In this document: positions 23,020 to 33,059 of the stretch, one piece after another
Numbering within the stretch: the stretch's first letter is position 1
How the letters are laid out: every line of letters begins with the position of its first letter
DNA from: Tissierellia bacterium
Lineage (GTDB): Bacteria; Bacillota; Clostridia; Tissierellales; Tissierellaceae
NCBI GenBank assembly: GCA_012519355.1
Contig: JAAYQJ010000191.1
Location: 1-33,059 of the forward strand
Reading direction: 5' to 3'
DNA length: 33,059 nt
Made by a program: the position numbers and the translations under genes
Notes under the pieces: generated by a model
What the model saw: the letters and a program-made list of their open reading frames with translations, nothing else
What the model was told of the DNA's origin: nothing
The model's database searches: none

Positions 23020-24339
23020 CTATTCCATATTGACACTATTGATATTATATTTACGGATCTTTCTATATAGAGTATTTCTTCCTATACCTAAGGCTTCAGC
23101 AGTTTTAGTAATATTCCCTTCATAGATATTAAGTACATTAACTATATGGTTTTTCTCCATCCTATCCATGGATAAGTCCTTACTAATACTATAGTTGATG
23201 GGAGCTTTCTCTTTTAACTCATGGTTGAAATAGTTTAGGGGTAGATATTCTAGATTTATGGCTAGTTCTATAAAGTTTTCTAGTTCTCTTACATTGCCAG
23301 GCCAAGAGTAAGCCATCAGTATGTCCATTTCTTCTTTACTAATCTTAACTTCTCTTTTATTTAACCTTCTTGATATCTTTTTAATAAAGTAATCTACTAA
23401 TAAGGGGATATCTTCGGTTCTTTCCCTTAAGGACATTATGGTCATGGGTAGGACATTTAGCCTATAAAACAAATCTTCTCTAAACCGGCCTTTGGCTACT
23501 TCCTCCCTGAGGTTTTTGTTGCTTGCTGCTATAATCCTAACATCTACTATTATCCTCTCAGTTCCGCCAATTCTGGAAACTATCCCTTCTTCTAATACCC
23601 TAAGGAGTCTAGTCTGTAAGTCTAAGGCCATCTCTCCGATTTCATCTAAAAATATTGTTCCCCCATGGGCAAGTTCAAATTTTCCTATTTGGCCTGTTTT
23701 TTTTGCTCCAGTGAAGGCCCCTTCTTCATAACCAAAGAGTTCAGATTCTATTAAGGTCTTAGGGATGGCTGCAGTGTTGATAGCAATAAAGGGTTGATTT
23801 TTTCTATTGCTATAATTGTGAATAGATTGGGCAAATACTTCTTTACCAGTACCTGATTCCCCCATGATAAGGACGGTGGACTTTGAATCTGACACCTTCT
23901 TGGCAAAGTCTATAAGTTTTAGAAATTCTTCATTCCTAGAGATGATCTTATCAAAGTTATATATGGCTCTATTATGAAGTATATCATTAGCTAGTTTTCT
24001 TTCTTTTTTAATATCTTCAAAGATATATAGTATATCTAAGGCTTCTCCTTTTGATGAGGAAATGGGAAAAGCAGATAGGGAATAGCTCAACTTGTTTCTT
24101 CTACCATATACATATACTTCTTCTCTTACAATATTTATATTCTCTTGCAAGGCCTTCTTAACTAAACTAAATCCATCAAACAAGTTGGAAATAGGTTTTC
24201 CTTGCAGTTCTTCAGGCAAGTATCCAAACATGTCTAAAAACTTTAAGTTTACATCTTTAATTAGGCCATCTCCATCTGATATGGCTATACCAAGGGGAAT
24301 GTTGTTAATTAGGTTTTTTACATAATCCCCATTGATCAT
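23020..24339 (-). CDS. sigma54-dependent transcriptional activator (PAS - AAA+ - Fis-type HTH)
   Basis: [15 protein letters not shown] (Walker A), [23 protein letters not shown] (GAFTGA), [13 protein letters not shown]-terminal [21 protein letters not shown]. Confidence 0.95.
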
Positions 24340-25235
24340 TAAATCACCTCTATGATATCTCCTTCTTTAATAATTCCACCCTTGATCACTTTTGTAAAAA
24401 TACCCTCCTTAGGCATTACGCATTTCCCTACTTTTTGAGATATGGCGCAACCTGTGTGGCATTCCTTACCAATTTGAGTTACTTCTTGAATAGTTTCTCC
24501 AATTCTAAGTCTAGTCCCTACAGGTAGTTCATATAAAACTATCCCCTCAGTAGTTATGTTTTCTGCAAATACCCCTGGGACTAAACCTTCAATCCCCTGA
24601 TTTTCCATTTTATCAAAACTTTCTATTGCCAACAAGCTAACTTGTCTGTGCCAATTACCTGAATGGGCATCATTTTCTAATCCATAATCTTCTATAAATA
24701 GGCCAGATCCTATAGGCTCCTTAATGACTCCCTTCTTGTCTGATATGTTTATGGATAAGACCTTACCTTCTTTTCTCATATAATCACCTGACTTTCCACC
24801 TGTTTTTTTAACTAATCGTATACTATCAATTACCATATCCTTGTCTATAGCCTTACACATATCATATATGGTCAAACATGCCAAAGATACTGCTGTTAAG
24901 GCTTCCATTTCTATACCAGTTTTTCCAAGAGTCTTCACTTCAGCTTCTACTTCTATAGACTCAGGTAGAATATTAAACCTAATATCTGCTCCTGTTAAGA
25001 ATATATTGTGGCACATGGGAATTAAATCACTGGTCTTTTTAGCAGCCATAATGCCTCCTATTTGAGCTACTGAAAGTACGTCCCCCTTTTCTATAAGACC
25101 ATCTTTGATTCTATCTATAGTTTCACTTTTCATCTTGATCCTGCCCCTTGCTATGGCAGTTCTCTTAGTATCCGCCTTGTGACTAACTTCTACCATATGG
25201 GCCCTTCCTTCTTCGTTGAAATGTGTTAAACCCAT
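24339..25235 (-). CDS. moaC: MoaC - MOSC fusion protein
   Basis: N-terminal MoaC ([64 protein letters not shown]), then from about residue 157 MOSC ([31 protein letters not shown]...AENITTEGI...[30 protein letters not shown]). TAATG overlap with activator. Confidence 0.92.
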
Positions 25236-25237
25236 TT

Positions 25238-26194
25238 CTAACCTCCTATTTGATTCATATTTCTACTAATGTATTTTCCCTCATCTAGGTTATGGGATTC
25301 TTCCTTCTTTTCTATAGAGTCTAGGATTAGTTTTTTCAGGTCTTGTCCACTTCTTAAAGCTGTTTTTATATCAACCTCTGCATTAGAATGAAGGCATAAT
25401 TTTAACTTTCCTTGGGATGTTAACCTTATACGATTACAATGGGCACAGAATTTACAGGATATTGGATTGATTAGTCCAACCCTACCTTTTCCATTGGGCA
25501 ACTTGTAGTAAGTTGCTGGAGAAGAGATATCTTCCTTGGGGATAGGGACTAGGTTTTTAACCTTATCCAGTACCAGACTTGTAGGAATAAACTTTTCCTT
25601 AGCCCAAGTAGCAGCTTGTCCAATGGGCATTAGCTCTATAAACCTAATGTCTATTTCTTCCTTCTCAGTTATTCCTACTAGGGATTCGATTTCATCATCA
25701 TTAAATCCACCTATTAAAACAGTATTAATTTTAATGGGTTCTAGACCAAGCTTTTTTGCCTCTTCTATCCCTTGTAAAGTAGACTTTAAATCTCCACCTC
25801 TAGTTATGGCCTTATACTTTTCCTCATTTAAGGTGTCTAAACTGATATTAAGCCTATTAAGGCCTGCCTCTTTTAGGGCTCCTGCGTAATCCTTTAGTAA
25901 AGTACCATTAGTAGTCATAGCAAGCTCTTTAACCCCATCTAAGGAGGATAAGTTTTTTATTAGGCCTAGTATACCCTTCCTCACTAAAGGTTCTCCGCCG
26001 GTTAATCTAATCTTATCTATACCTAATTCAACAAATACCTTAGCTATCTCAAAGACTTCTTCCAAAGTAAGCATGTCATCATGGAGAAATTTATTGACTC
26101 CCTCCTCAGGCATGCAATACTTACATCTTAAGTTGCACCTATCTGTCAAGGATATTCTAAGATAATTTATTTTCCTTCCAAATGCATCTTTCAT
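25238..26194 (-). CDS. moaA: GTP 3',8-cyclase (radical SAM)
   Basis: [21 protein letters not shown]-terminal cluster [20 protein letters not shown]. Confidence 0.95.
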
Positions 26195-26209
26195 TCCTTC
26201 ACCTATTTT

Positions 26210-28093
26210 CTAAATAATTATTATTTCCCCTGTTTCTCCAAACTTATATCCACCTAAGGCTTGAACCCTATCTTGGAATTCTTTGGACTTAAGAACCTGT
26301 ATAAATTCGGCTATCATAGGCTCATCTAGTAGTTTCTCTGGTATAAGAAAGTCGTAATCTTCATAGGTAACATCAATAAAGTCTAAGTCCAAGGCCTTTG
26401 CAGCAGAGTAAATACCTAAGCCACAATCAGCAGTACCAGTTTTTACACCTGTAGCAACAGCCATATGGGTTGTCATTTCCCTCTCATAACCTTTAACCTT
26501 GTCTGGATTTATATTGTCTACCCTTAAGTGATAATCAAGTAGTATTCTGGTTCCAGCCCCTCTTTGCCTATTAATATATAGGATATCTTCTCTTGCTAAA
26601 TCCTTAAAGTCTTTAATATTCTTAGGATTTCCTTTTCGCACTATAAAACCCTGTTGCCTTTTTACTCCTTTTATTAAGGCCATTTTTTCATTGGGAAAGT
26701 ATTTTTTTACATAGCTAATATTGTATTCTCCCGTCTCTTCATCTAATAAGTGAATAGGAGCTATATGGCATTCTCCCCTTTTCATAGCCAGGATACCTCC
26801 CATACTGCCTACATGGCCAGAGCTTAAAGGCAGTATATCTCCTAATATATCCATAATAAGGTCGTGGCTTCCTATGGAAACAATAGATTTTTTTATTTCT
26901 GATAAGGGTTTCAATAATTCCACATCTATTAAGTCTCCTGCCTCTACCCCTTCTACATTTTGGGGAATTATAGCTATTCCATCAGCCTTTACTAGGGACA
27001 TGGTAACTCCTGCCCCGCTGGATAAGGGAGTGGCTACTAATCTATCATTAACATAGCCAAGGTTAACCCTTACCAAATCCTTGTTTTTTAGAGATGATAC
27101 TATTCTCTTTGATATGGTGGCTTGAATTAACTCTTCTTCCTTTTCCTTAAGGCCAATATATTTTTCTATTAAGGGTCTTACAAAATTATCAAATACCAGG
27201 TAGGCTGATACTGGGTATCCAGGTATGCCTATAACAGGCTTATCCTTTATTACACCTAAAATTGTTGGTTTACCTGGCTTCATAGCCACACCATGAATTA
27301 CAACTTCACCTAGTTCTCTTATTAGCTTTACAGTATAATCAGTGGTTCCAGCTGAAGACCCTGCATTTATTAGGAGGATATCATTTTCTTCTACTCCCTT
27401 TAATATTGCATTTTTTAGTAGTTGGTAATCGTCCTTATGGGGAGGATACCTCTTAGGAAGACCACCAAGTTTAATTACAGATGCTTCAAAAACCCTAGAA
27501 TTTGAATCTATTATCTTTCCTTCTTCTAGGTCCTTTACATCTTCAATTATCTCAGTTCCTGTTGGTAAAATCCCTATCCTAGGCTTTTTATATACTTTAA
27601 CCCTCTCTATACCACCAGAAATTAAAGCTCCTATATCTATGGGTCTTATTTTATGTTTAGAAGGAATGATCATTTCTGTAGCTACTATATCTTCTCCGAT
27701 TTGTCTAACATGTTGCCATGGGTGGGCAGATTTAAGGATTTGAACTTTTCCCTCTCCTAAATCTATTACATCCTCTATCATAATCACTGCATCATAGGGG
27801 TCTCTAATTGGATTTCCTGTATTTATATATATAAAGTCCTTATTTTCTTCTAAGGTCATTGGCTTAGTTTCTGTAGCCCCTAAAGTATCCCCTGCCCTTA
27901 CTGCAATACCGTCCATGGCAGCAGCATTGTAGTTTGGGGAAGAAATTTTAGCTATAACAGCCTCAGCTGTAACCCTGTCTAAGGACTCAATAACCTTGAC
28001 TTCTTCAACTTCTAACTTAATATTCAATCTATCAAAATATGTTTTTTTGGCCAAATCTACGTCAATATTATCTATATAGGTGCTTCTATCCAT
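26210..28093 (-). CDS. moeA: MoeA fused to C-terminal PBP-like domain
   Basis: MoeA core (SSPNYNAAAMDGIAVRAGDT, PTGTEII, GGSSAGT-like NAGSSAGTTDYT, MKPGKPTILG, GIPGYPVSAYLVF) followed by PBP-like GSHDLIMDILGDILP...INRQRGAGTRILLDYHL...GTADCGLGIYSAAKALDLDF. Confidence 0.92.
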   Translation of the reverse strand: MDRSTYIDNIDVDLAKKTYFDRLNIKLEVEEVKVIESLDRVTAEAVIAKISSPNYNAAAMDGIAVRAGDTLGATETKPMTLEENKDFIYINTGNPIRDPYDAVIMIEDVIDLGEGKVQILKSAHPWQHVRQIGEDIVATEMIIPSKHKIRPIDIGALISGGIERVKVYKKPRIGILPTGTEIIEDVKDLEEGKIIDSNSRVFEASVIKLGGLPKRYPPHKDDYQLLKNAILKGVEENDILLINAGSSAGTTDYTVKLIRELGEVVIHGVAMKPGKPTILGVIKDKPVIGIPGYPVSAYLVFDNFVRPLIEKYIGLKEKEEELIQATISKRIVSSLKNKDLVRVNLGYVNDRLVATPLSSGAGVTMSLVKADGIAIIPQNVEGVEAGDLIDVELLKPLSEIKKSIVSIGSHDLIMDILGDILPLSSGHVGSMGGILAMKRGECHIAPIHLLDEETGEYNISYVKKYFPNEKMALIKGVKRQQGFIVRKGNPKNIKDFKDLAREDILYINRQRGAGTRILLDYHLRVDNINPDKVKGYEREMTTHMAVATGVKTGTADCGLGIYSAAKALDLDFIDVTYEDYDFLIPEKLLDEPMIAEFIQVLKSKEFQDRVQALGGYKFGETGEIIII

Positions 28094-28123
28094 CTAATCA
28101 TCTCCCAATATTTAGTTAATAAC

Positions 28124-28213
28124 TGATAGTTAATAGTGAATATTTGTGGGTCAAGCTTTAGGATCAAGATCCTTCGCTCCACTCAGGATGACAATTTCAC
28201 TATTAATTTATCA
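28124..28213. repeat. MITE-like/small intergenic repeat with imperfect terminal inverted repeats
   Basis: TGATAGTTAATAGTGAA (28124-28140) versus TTCACTATTAATTTATCA (28196-28213), flanking GGATCAAGATCCTTCGCTCCACTCAGGATGACA. Confidence 0.6.
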
Positions 28214-28241
28214 CTCCCCCCTATTCACTCTTCACTTTGCA

Positions 28242-29468
28242 CTAAAGTAAGTAAACTTCCCTTTCCTCTCCCTTATATATTCCTTCCTCATGGGATTCTA
28301 TTACAATGTATCCCTGAGACTCCGACAATAGACTTATCATACCTGACTTACCAAAGCTAGGAGTTGCATAGAATATCCCATCCTCTTCCTTTAGTTTGAC
28401 CAATTGGTAAGTTACCCTTCCAGGTGCTGAGGGAAAGTTGAAGTCCATTATGGCCTTAACCCTAGGAGCTATATCTTTTACCCCTAGTTTGTCCTTAATG
28501 AAATCTTCTATAAATGTTTTAAATACTATTATTGATGATACTGGATGGCCTGGTAATCCAAAGATTAGCTTGCCATTTCCTTCTCCCATTATTGTAGGCT
28601 TTCCTGGCTTGATGGATACTCCATGGACAAAGACTCCCCTTCCACCAAAGGAATCAATAACCTTGTGTGTAAAATCCTTAGTACCTACTGAGCTGCCTCC
28701 TGAAATCAAGACAATATCAGATAAGTCTAAGGCCCTTTCCACTTCTTGCCTAAGCAAATTATAATCATCCTTTATGATAACCTTATTTACAACCTCTCCA
28801 CCTAACTTGTGGATCAGGCCAGCTAGGGCATAGGTATTTATATCCCTTATTTTTCCCATGGTAAGGTCTTCTTCTATATCAATTATTTCATCTCCAGTAG
28901 ATATTATATAAAAGCTAGGCTTTTTATATACTTTTACTTTACCTATACCTAAGGCTGCCAAAACCCCCATTACCTCCGGAGTAATCCTCCTACCCTTTTC
29001 TAGAGCTAAAGCACCCTTTTTTATGTCGTCCCCCTTGTAGACAATGTTTTCTCCTTGAGATATAGGCTTATATATTAGCAGGATACTTTCATCCATTTTC
29101 TCAGTATTCTCTATCATTATCATGCTGTCAGCCCCATCTGGTATCATGCCACCTGTAGGGACATAGATAGCCTCTCCTGATTTAATGGCTTTATTTGCAA
29201 GCTCTCCCATCTTAACTTCTCCAATGATATTCAAGATACTTGGAATTGAATCACTGGCACCATGGGAATCTGATGATTTAATAGCATAGCCATCTACGGT
29301 AGACCGATTGAAGTCTGGCACATCAATATTAGAGTATATTTCTTCTCCTAAAACCCTATCTAATGAATTAAGGATATCAACTTCTTCAATTTCAAACTCA
29401 TAGTCTCTTAAGTTTTCCTTCAATAGTCTTTTCCCCTCTTCCACCGATACTACCTTAAAAAAATCCAT
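28242..29468 (-). CDS. moeA: molybdopterin molybdenumtransferase MoeA (second copy)
   Basis: VPDFNRSTVDGYAIKSSDSHGA, YVPTGGMIPDGADSMIMIE, STGDEI, SGGSSVGTKDFT, IKPGKPTIMG, GLPGHPVSSIIVF. Confidence 0.93.
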   Translation of the reverse strand: MDFFKVVSVEEGKRLLKENLRDYEFEIEEVDILNSLDRVLGEEIYSNIDVPDFNRSTVDGYAIKSSDSHGASDSIPSILNIIGEVKMGELANKAIKSGEAIYVPTGGMIPDGADSMIMIENTEKMDESILLIYKPISQGENIVYKGDDIKKGALALEKGRRITPEVMGVLAALGIGKVKVYKKPSFYIISTGDEIIDIEEDLTMGKIRDINTYALAGLIHKLGGEVVNKVIIKDDYNLLRQEVERALDLSDIVLISGGSSVGTKDFTHKVIDSFGGRGVFVHGVSIKPGKPTIMGEGNGKLIFGLPGHPVSSIIVFKTFIEDFIKDKLGVKDIAPRVKAIMDFNFPSAPGRVTYQLVKLKEEDGIFYATPSFGKSGMISLLSESQGYIVIESHEEGIYKGEEREVYLL

Positions 29469-29505
29469 AATCTTACCACCTTTCTAAAAGACAGCTAACT
29501 TTCTA

Positions 29506-30183
29506 TTATTGTAGCTTTAACCTTTCCATCTCCATATTTTTAACATCTATCAGTATTAAATCTCCATCTAATTCTTCATTAAATATTACCTTCAGTAGTA
29601 AATTCACCTGTAAAGATGCTGTTACCATGCAAGTCATAGGTAGATTGCCTAAGGATTCATCATCCCTCTTAAGGCCCCCATATATCCTATTAAATATCCT
29701 ATTCTTGGGACTTGAAACAGCAACTTGACCATAGTATCCCCTTATGGCTCCATGTATTAGGGTTAGGTTCATCTTATCACATAGTTTTTCTAGCTTCAAT
29801 CTACTATCTATAGAATCTAAGCAGTCTACAACTATATCTACCCCTTCTAACATCTCCACACTATTTTCATCTAATTCACAACTAAATACCCTTGCATCTA
29901 CATTCCTATCTATGGATTTAGCCCTCCTAAAGCCTTCCTCAGCCTTGCTCAAGCCTAAATTATTTTCAGTAGAAAGTATCTGCCTATTTAAGTTAGATAC
30001 TTCGAAAACATCCCTGTCTATTAGGTTAAAAGATTTAACACCTAATCTAACTAGGTTTTCTAAAACATAACCCCCTAGTCCACCCAGGCCAACTATGGCA
30101 ACCCTTGTGTTATTGAGGATTGCTTGTTCTTCCTTTGTAATAGACGAATAATTCCTTACATATCTTCCCATATTACTTTTCAC
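29506..30183 (-). CDS. ThiF/MoeB/HesA-family E1-like adenylyltransferase
   Basis: VAIVGLGGLGGYVLENLVRLGVKSFNLIDRDVFEVSNLNRQIL; VVDCLDSIDSRLKLEKLC. Confidence 0.9.
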   Translation of the reverse strand: MKSNMGRYVRNYSSITKEEQAILNNTRVAIVGLGGLGGYVLENLVRLGVKSFNLIDRDVFEVSNLNRQILSTENNLGLSKAEEGFRRAKSIDRNVDARVFSCELDENSVEMLEGVDIVVDCLDSIDSRLKLEKLCDKMNLTLIHGAIRGYYGQVAVSSPKNRIFNRIYGGLKRDDESLGNLPMTCMVTASLQVNLLLKVIFNEELDGDLILIDVKNMEMERLKLQ

Positions 30184-31832: not shown

Positions 31833-32720
31833 TTATTCTGCATTTGGTATAAATAAGGGTTGTCCATACTCCTCTACACCAAAGTCCTTAATCAAATCTT
31901 GGCCTCTTTTTGAAGTTATCCAGTTCATAAACTCTATGGCGCCTTCACCATTGATGTTAGTATTTTTATCTGGATTTACTGGAATTACCCCATATTGGTT
32001 AAATAGGTTTTCATCTCCTTCAATTATTATATCTAAATCCAATGTATCTCTCATACTTAAGTAAGTAGCCCTATCTGTAATGGTATAGCCTTGTTTTTCA
32101 CTGGAAATTTTAAGTACATCTCCCATTCCTGCTCCTGCTTCTAGATACCAATCCCCTGCAGGTTCAATATTGGCAGCTTTCCAGATGCTTAATTCCTTTT
32201 TATGGGTACCTGAGTCGTCTCCTCTAGATACAAAGGTTACACCATTATTTGCTATTAGCTTTAGCCCTTCTAAAATATTATTTGGGTGGTCATTTTTTAG
32301 CTTTAGAGGGTCCTTTTCTGGTCCTACTAAGATGAAATCATTATACATTACATCTAGTCTTTCAGTACCATGGCCTTCCTCTACAAATTTAAGTTCGTCT
32401 GCCTTAGCATGAACCAAGAGTACATCTGCCTCTCCATCTCTACCCATTTGTAATGCCTTACCTGTTCCTACTGCAATAGTCTTTACTTCTATTCCAGTTT
32501 CCTCAGTAAAAATTGGAAGTAAAAAGTCTAATAGACCTGAGTCTTGAGTAGATGTTGTAGTTGACAAGATAATTGAACCTTTTGGTTCCTCTGGTGGAAC
32601 TGGATCATTGGTTTCTTCTTGTACCACATCCTGATTTTGAGGAGTTTCTGTCTTAGGTGAACATGCTACTGTAGTGATGATTAGCAAGAGGGCAAGTAAT
32701 AAAAGACTAATTCTTTTCAT
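31833..32720 (-). CDS. tupA: tungstate ABC transporter substrate-binding lipoprotein
   Basis: Lipobox TTVAC; TupA signature SIILSTTTSTQDSGLLDFLLPIF; VSRGDDSGTHKKELSIWK. Confidence 0.92.
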   Translation of the reverse strand: MKRISLLLLALLLIITTVACSPKTETPQNQDVVQEETNDPVPPEEPKGSIILSTTTSTQDSGLLDFLLPIFTEETGIEVKTIAVGTGKALQMGRDGEADVLLVHAKADELKFVEEGHGTERLDVMYNDFILVGPEKDPLKLKNDHPNNILEGLKLIANNGVTFVSRGDDSGTHKKELSIWKAANIEPAGDWYLEAGAGMGDVLKISSEKQGYTITDRATYLSMRDTLDLDIIIEGDENLFNQYGVIPVNPDKNTNINGEGAIEFMNWITSKRGQDLIKDFGVEEYGQPLFIPNAE

Positions 32721-32757: not shown

Positions 32758-32872
32758 AAAAAAAAGACTGCCTAAAGGAAGGCTGCCTAAACATCTTCCT
32801 TTCCAATCACGGGAGGCAAAGAAATTTCTTCCTTCACCCATTGGCTTATACTTCATGACCAATGCAAGCCTT
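32758..32872 (-). ncRNA. structured leader of tupA; candidate Moco/Tuco-type riboswitch with terminator
   Basis: P1 AAGGCT/AGCCTT (32867-32872/32779-32784), P2 CATTGG/CCAATG, small AAGA-aatt-TCTT hairpin, conserved-looking GCCTCCCGTGATTGGAAAGG; alternative stem AAAGGAAG/CTTCCTTT (32795-32802/32774-32781) overlaps the P1 3' strand and leads to an 8-U run at 32758-32765. Confidence 0.6.
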
Positions 32873-32877
32873 TGGTT

Positions 32878-33059
32878 TTAGAAGTTTAAGCTCGGAAAAC
32901 TTGAATAGATATTCATTTTTTCTCCTCTTGCAAATCCTACTACTGTTATGTTTAACTCCCTAGCCAATTCTACAGAAAGGCTGGTAGGAGCAGACCTGGA
33001 TATTATTACTGGTATACCTCTTTTAGCTACTTTTATTAGCATTTCAGAAGTTATTCTTC
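32878..33059 (-). CDS. fdhD: FdhD formate dehydrogenase accessory sulfurtransferase, C-terminal part (runs off right edge)
   Basis: Own minus-strand translation: RITSEMLIKVAKRGIPVIISRSAPTSLSVELARELNITVVGFARGEKMNIYSSFPSLNF*, matching the FdhD C-terminus. Confidence 0.9.
   Translation of the reverse strand, partial: RITSEMLIKVAKRGIPVIISRSAPTSLSVELARELNITVVGFARGEKMNIYSSFPSLNF

Follow-up and report, generated by a model that had tools for sequence, protein, structure and literature searches.

A P3-less molybdenum/tungsten cofactor riboswitch that overlaps the 3' end of fdhD ahead of tupABC: a probable transcriptional OFF switch within an operon

Introduction

Among the molybdenum and tungsten cofactor (Moco/Tuco) riboswitches of Rfam family RF01055, members that lack P3 go with tungsten genes according to Regulski et al. 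2008 (PMC2408646), whose conclusions rest on genetic assays; when P3 was removed from the E. coli RNA, regulation was lost and not switched. The locus described here lies in a 33,059-nucleotide stretch of Tissierellia bacterium DNA (GenBank assembly GCA_012519355.1, contig JAAYQJ010000191.1), which was analysed as a whole and is referred to below as the window. It shares with the P3-less group the core, the GAAA tetraloop and its receptor, the absence of P3 and a tungsten gene context, and it has a terminator platform, as do some members of that group. Unlike the published group, the aptamer in the window is intra-operonic, its 5' end codes for fdhD and the UAA of the tetraloop receptor serves as the fdhD stop codon; the main text of PMC2408646 makes no mention of fdhD or of any overlap.

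Two other described systems are close. Tandem Moco/Wco riboswitches (PMC9481103) are made of the same aptamers, which occur as a tandem pair in one relative (locus L003, genome G232) and as a single copy in the window. The B12 riboswitches of M. tuberculosis (PMC11260477) likewise tie a translated frame to a riboswitch leader, with one uORF encoded within an aptamer extension. Those frames are short uORFs and control is translational OFF, whereas the window combines the end of a full-length conserved gene with a transcription terminator. A literature search whose coverage left out most subscription papers found no RF01055-class aptamer that overlaps an upstream gene and no fdhD-linked Moco switch.

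The riboswitch itself is therefore of a known class and its presence was expected. What is new, as judged from sequence comparison, is a conserved coding-overlap architecture, not an established family, in which the aptamer also encodes the C-terminus of the product of a conserved enzyme-maturation gene and the tetraloop receptor supplies the stop codon. The arrangement illustrates how an operon can accommodate an aptamer without a leader, and how RNA structure can constrain a protein tail (FPSLxF). It also offers a natural test of the interaction between ribosomes and riboswitch folding, and a compact system, found also in relatives that are in culture ([Clostridium] ultunense is an example), in which to ask whether the tungsten cofactor is really what P3-less RNAs sense.

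Results and Discussion

When the whole window was searched against Rfam, a single match exceeded the threshold. It is to RF01055 (Molybdenum/Tungsten riboswitch), at 32909-32780 on the minus strand, and scores 77.4 bits (gathering score 36), with an E-value of 2.8e-17 over the window. The match covers the complete model (positions 1-135, cmscan) and is the only one to this family in the 2.16-Mb, 84%-complete genome. A preliminary description of the window had placed a riboswitch-like leader at 32758-32878 and suggested RF01055. The family assignment was borne out far above threshold, but the extent was not, as the aptamer begins inside fdhD and the overlap had been missed. The same description had called the leader highly structured, and the fdhD-tupA region does fold better than chance (z -2.1; 4 of 200 shuffles equal it). 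By every testable feature, the fdhD-tupA leader is a genuine member of RF01055, the Moco/Tuco riboswitches. An Xist_exon1 match elsewhere in the Rfam output was rejected as chance, being sub-threshold (20.3 bits against a gathering score of 50).

The window aptamer aligns to RF01055 with every conserved core position and helix intact. P1 pairs UUUUCC (32894-32899), which doubles as fdhD codons, with GGAAGA (32794-32799), a strand that it has in common with the antiterminator described below. The 5' strand of P2, GCUUAAACUUC (32881-32891), encodes the final fdhD residues, and its 3' strand, GAAGUAUAAGC (32844-32854), is followed by a short linker, CAAU, instead of P3. P4 is the hairpin GGGUGAAGGAA-GAAA-UUUCUUUGCCU (32814-32839), with the GAAA tetraloop at 32828-32825, and P5 is CC-CGUGAUU-GG (32803-32813). 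The receptor in the P2 bulge is formed by CUAAAACC...GGUCAUG, of which the first strand (CUAAA; 32874-32881) contains the fdhD stop codon; the tertiary contact itself is predicted. These elements, all on the minus strand, were assigned from the RF01055 alignment, together with pair counts for P1, the 5' strand of P2, P4 and P5, fold energies for the 3' strand of P1 and the sequence of the receptor strand.

Comparison with 34 fdhD-overlapping homologues supports this fold. Over the 29 pairs of P1, P2, P4 and P5, 95.2% of cells are paired and 16 pairs have changes on both sides; 500 shuffles all fell short of this level of pairing, and no slid register came near it. In P1 alone, 98.5% of cells are paired and the changes are one-sided only, because its 5' strand is coding. 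A different closing stem, AAGGCT/AGCCTT, had been proposed earlier. Both blocks exist (32872-32867 and 32784-32779), but neither the RF01055 alignment nor any predicted fold contains the stem, which conflicts with the terminator, and it was rejected in favour of UUUUCC/GGAAGA as the true P1. The segment GCCTCCCGTGATTGGAAAGG, quoted with it, is also present.

The aptamer runs into an intrinsic terminator, AGGCAGCCU-UCCUUU-AGGCAGUCU with a U-run (32758-32788, minus strand; -9.0 kcal/mol), which reads AGGCAGCCT-TCCTTT-AGGCAGTCT plus Us at the DNA level; the hairpin spans 32788-32765. A simple terminator scan overlooked it because of its A-A mismatch. An antiterminator of 8 bp, AAAGGAAG/CUUCCUUU (32774-32802, minus strand; -9.4), excludes both P1 and the terminator, since its 5' strand takes up the 3' strand of P1 and its 3' strand takes the 5' arm and loop of the terminator. 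In predicted folds, P1 plus terminator (-43.3 kcal/mol) and the antiterminator state (-42.7 kcal/mol) are nearly isoenergetic, which suggests an RNA poised between two states, as in an OFF switch. The exclusivity computed for the window is conserved: a terminator-like hairpin is present in 35 of 35 fdhD-overlapping homologues, although in two of them (G045 and G233) the scan probably picked the wrong hairpin, and in 31 of the 35 the antiterminator is 7 bp or longer. Two genomes (G025 and G026) have a re-paired variant, AAGATAG/CTATCTT, in which the sequence has changed and the pairing is kept. The layout is thus predicted to be that of a transcription-terminating OFF switch, with a terminator and a mutually exclusive antiterminator that uses the 3' strand of P1.

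The preliminary description had already recognized a transcription-terminating geometry, and this stands, as do the 8-bp complementarity between AAAGGAAG (32802-32795) and CTTCCTTT (32781-32774), the eight Us at 32765-32758 and their position ahead of tupA, which begins at 32720, 37 nt downstream of the U-run. The roles have to be exchanged, however: the 8-bp stem does not lead into the U-run but is the antiterminator, and the terminator is the hairpin at 32788-32765.

The genes on either side, all on the minus strand, indicate what such a switch would control. Upstream is the 3' part of fdhD (32878-33059; TIGR00129/PF02634). The gene is split across two contigs in this genome (C215 and C70), and its 5' part lies at the end of C215 after mobA, with a GTGA start/stop overlap. 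Upstream of fdhD, C215 carries in order NuoF/NuoE-like subunits, formate dehydrogenase alpha, mogA/moaB and mobA; the formate dehydrogenase alpha gene (L236, G000:C215, 4410-1723, minus strand) is interrupted by an in-frame TGA whose context, VDHCARL-U-HAST, is that of selenocysteine. The first controlled gene would be tupA (31833-32720), a tungstate-binding protein gene whose sole NCBIfam match, NF041772, is below the equivalog cut-off. Next are tupB (31596-30907) and tupC (30905-30294), named from their position after tupA, from domain matches (PF00528, PF00005) and from NF041773 for tupB and NF041774/NF040840 for tupC, all below equivalog cut-offs. Profile matches then identify ThiF-like, MoeA, MoeA-PBP, MoaA and MoaC-MOSC genes (24339-30183), a sigma-54 activator (24339-23020) and, at the end of the cluster, an aldehyde ferredoxin oxidoreductase (AOR; 22872-21040) of the tungsten-enzyme family. 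In genome G020, a single 3.9-Mb contig, the order FDH-mogA-mobA-fdhD-riboswitch-tupABC is continuous. This gene order places the switch between an enzyme/maturation module and an uptake/synthesis module, in support of the earlier proposal of intra-operonic action that uncouples tungstate uptake from fdhD; tupABC and moe/moa downstream fit Moco/Tuco RNAs, as had also been noted.

We therefore favor, with a probability of about 0.85, a P3-less RF01055 riboswitch, most likely Tuco/Wco-sensing, that acts as an intra-operonic transcriptional OFF switch and very probably turns off tungstate uptake when cofactor is abundant. In the mechanism that we infer, single transcripts through the formate dehydrogenase module and fdhD would run into the aptamer, which begins with the last part of fdhD. 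When ligand is present, P1 would stay closed and block the antiterminator, the terminator would fold and transcription would halt before tupABC and the Moco/Tuco synthesis genes. With ligand absent, the 3' strand of P1 would pair with CUUCCUUU, the terminator would be broken and the downstream genes would be read. As fdhD and the upstream enzyme genes would be expressed in both states, sufficient Tuco would lower tungstate uptake and cofactor synthesis while formate dehydrogenase and fdhD continue to be made.

The feature that sets this switch apart is its overlap with fdhD. The first quarter of the aptamer is the end of the fdhD coding sequence, with about ten last codons and the stop inside; the gene ends in ...AGT TTT CCG AGC TTA AAC TTC TAA, such that the final codons form strands of P1 and P2 and the stop (TAA, 32880-32878, minus strand) is the UAA of the receptor. 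An fdhD frame ends within the aptamer in 35 of 134 RF01055 matches of the order, spread over seven families (our labels f1, f5, f8, f13, f17, f18 and f19), and all 35 frames stop at one position, aptamer nt 29-31. The next gene is tupA in 34 of these cases and moeA in one, and none of the 35 aptamers is P3-bearing. The order holds 20 other tupA-linked switches without fdhD overlap. A sample of 69 RF01055 matches from elsewhere in the class contained no long reading frame ending in the receptor; fdhD is sometimes a neighbor in that sample, at about 100 nt.

Codon usage in the overlap is strongly skewed. The Pro codon is CCG in 33 of 33 sequences (7 of 161 elsewhere in those fdhD genes), the Ser codon AGC in 28 of 33 (10% elsewhere) and the last Phe codon TTC in 29 of 29 (22% elsewhere), and the strongest synonymous constraint in fdhD falls in the window of its final seven codons, although the sequences are related and p-values are merely indicative. 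This pattern indicates that the RNA dictates codon choice at the fdhD 3' end. In the order, 18 FdhDs whose genes do not overlap an aptamer carry different tails, and CCG AGC occurs in none of them, so the FPSLxF tail was rejected as an RNA-independent feature of FdhD. Two non-overlapping FdhDs (L216 and L217) do end in FPTL and FSTL, and an F-P-x-L tail could possibly predate the overlap in part of the lineage.

Elevated synonymous constraint is likewise seen just 5' of the aptamer (about 32925-32878, minus strand; GAA AAA ATG AAT), where Glu is encoded by GAA in 22 of 22 sequences with the overlap and in 3 of 7 without it. The sequence AGGAGAAAAAATG in this region may serve as an internal, in-frame start for an ORF of 12 codons, MNIYSSFPSLNF, or may be a spacer that lacks structure.

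Where fdhD is absent, the same frame of the aptamer commonly reads (F/S/I)PS...stop, and the consensus thus provides any upstream gene with a ready-made end. Two such aptamers have FdhD-like tail remnants, NIYKSFPSIEF (G005) and NIYLKFPSLIF (G232), though fdhD lies elsewhere in both genomes, which suggests that they derive from an ancestor with the overlap, since lost.

At the G005 locus (L100, G005:C59), the RF01055 element precedes tupA and its relic tail ends in a stop; an intact fdhD frame is absent there, and the fdhD gene elsewhere in the genome encodes a different tail. In G232 (L003/L138, G232:C277, 1260-1606), both P3-less copies of the tandem pair before tupA have FdhD-tail-like 5' ends, with fdhD on another contig. 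A near-overlap of another kind is seen at L149, L181, L183, L185 and L208, where the gene upstream is ThiF-like and ends at aptamer nt 2-4.

The overlap raises the question of whether fdhD translation is an input to the switch. Ribosomes finishing fdhD would cover P1, P2 and the receptor and terminate at the UAA, and the aptamer would fold only after their release; fdhD translation would then favor antitermination, and the switch would integrate the cofactor level with fdhD translation. This would be an addition to the OFF-switch explanation, not a replacement for it, and we regard it as possible but on balance doubtful. The stop codon sits exactly in the receptor in all 35 overlap cases, codon constraint is strong, the distance of about 110-120 nt from the stop to the terminator is so short that a trailing ribosome may have an effect, and interplay between riboswitches and uORFs is known from the B12 switches of M. 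tuberculosis (PMC11260477). Mere compaction may explain the overlap by itself, however, as the consensus frame PS..* is open to any upstream gene and the 20 tupA-linked switches without fdhD do without it. A wider form of this proposal, that the coding end and the cofactor sensor together work as a single attenuator coupled to translation and conserved across several families of the order, is correspondingly tentative. Translational coupling between fdhD and tupA was considered separately and judged unlikely, because the fdhD stop and the tupA start are 157 nt apart and tupA has its own AAGGAG.

The identity of the ligand is suggested by the subtype. The P3 positions of the model are deleted in the window aptamer, where CAAU links P2 to P4, and this P3-less switch precedes tupABC, the moe/moa synthesis genes and, at the end of the cluster, AOR. 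Within the order, tupA or AOR comes next after 62 of 123 P3-less RF01055 matches and after 0 of 11 P3-bearing ones (p=0.0009, kinship ignored), the latter having been picked by eye as an automatic P3 classifier was unreliable on some aptamers; they adjoin modA, mobA, moeA-like and other genes instead. The P3 rule for the tungsten subtype is correlative, and we infer from it and from the gene context that Tuco (Wco) is the likelier ligand. Sensing of Moco, or of both cofactors, seems unlikely given the missing P3, the tupABC and AOR context and the distribution of neighbors just described, even though one RNA family serves both cofactors, the P3 rule is a correlation only (PMC2408646) and the organism encodes MobA/MogA and a selenocysteine formate dehydrogenase that may use Mo or W.

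It is highly improbable that the RF01055 match is a relic between an ordinary fdhD terminator and a constitutive tupA promoter: the terminator after fdhD is a good one, but the core positions and helices are intact, the helices covary in relatives, the antiterminator is conserved and a simple consensus found no sigma-70-like promoter on the minus strand from 33059 to 32300, inside fdhD or before tupA. That negative result also speaks for an intra-operonic switch, although a promoter inside fdhD might have escaped so simple a scan.

Further downstream, a sigma-54-like promoter, TGGCATTAAGCTTGCA (22928-22913, minus strand), lies just before AOR and right after the sigma-54 activator gene. It is the sole exact match of its kind in the window, where 0.04 would be expected by chance, and this lone site suggests that AOR is probably under separate sigma-54 control.
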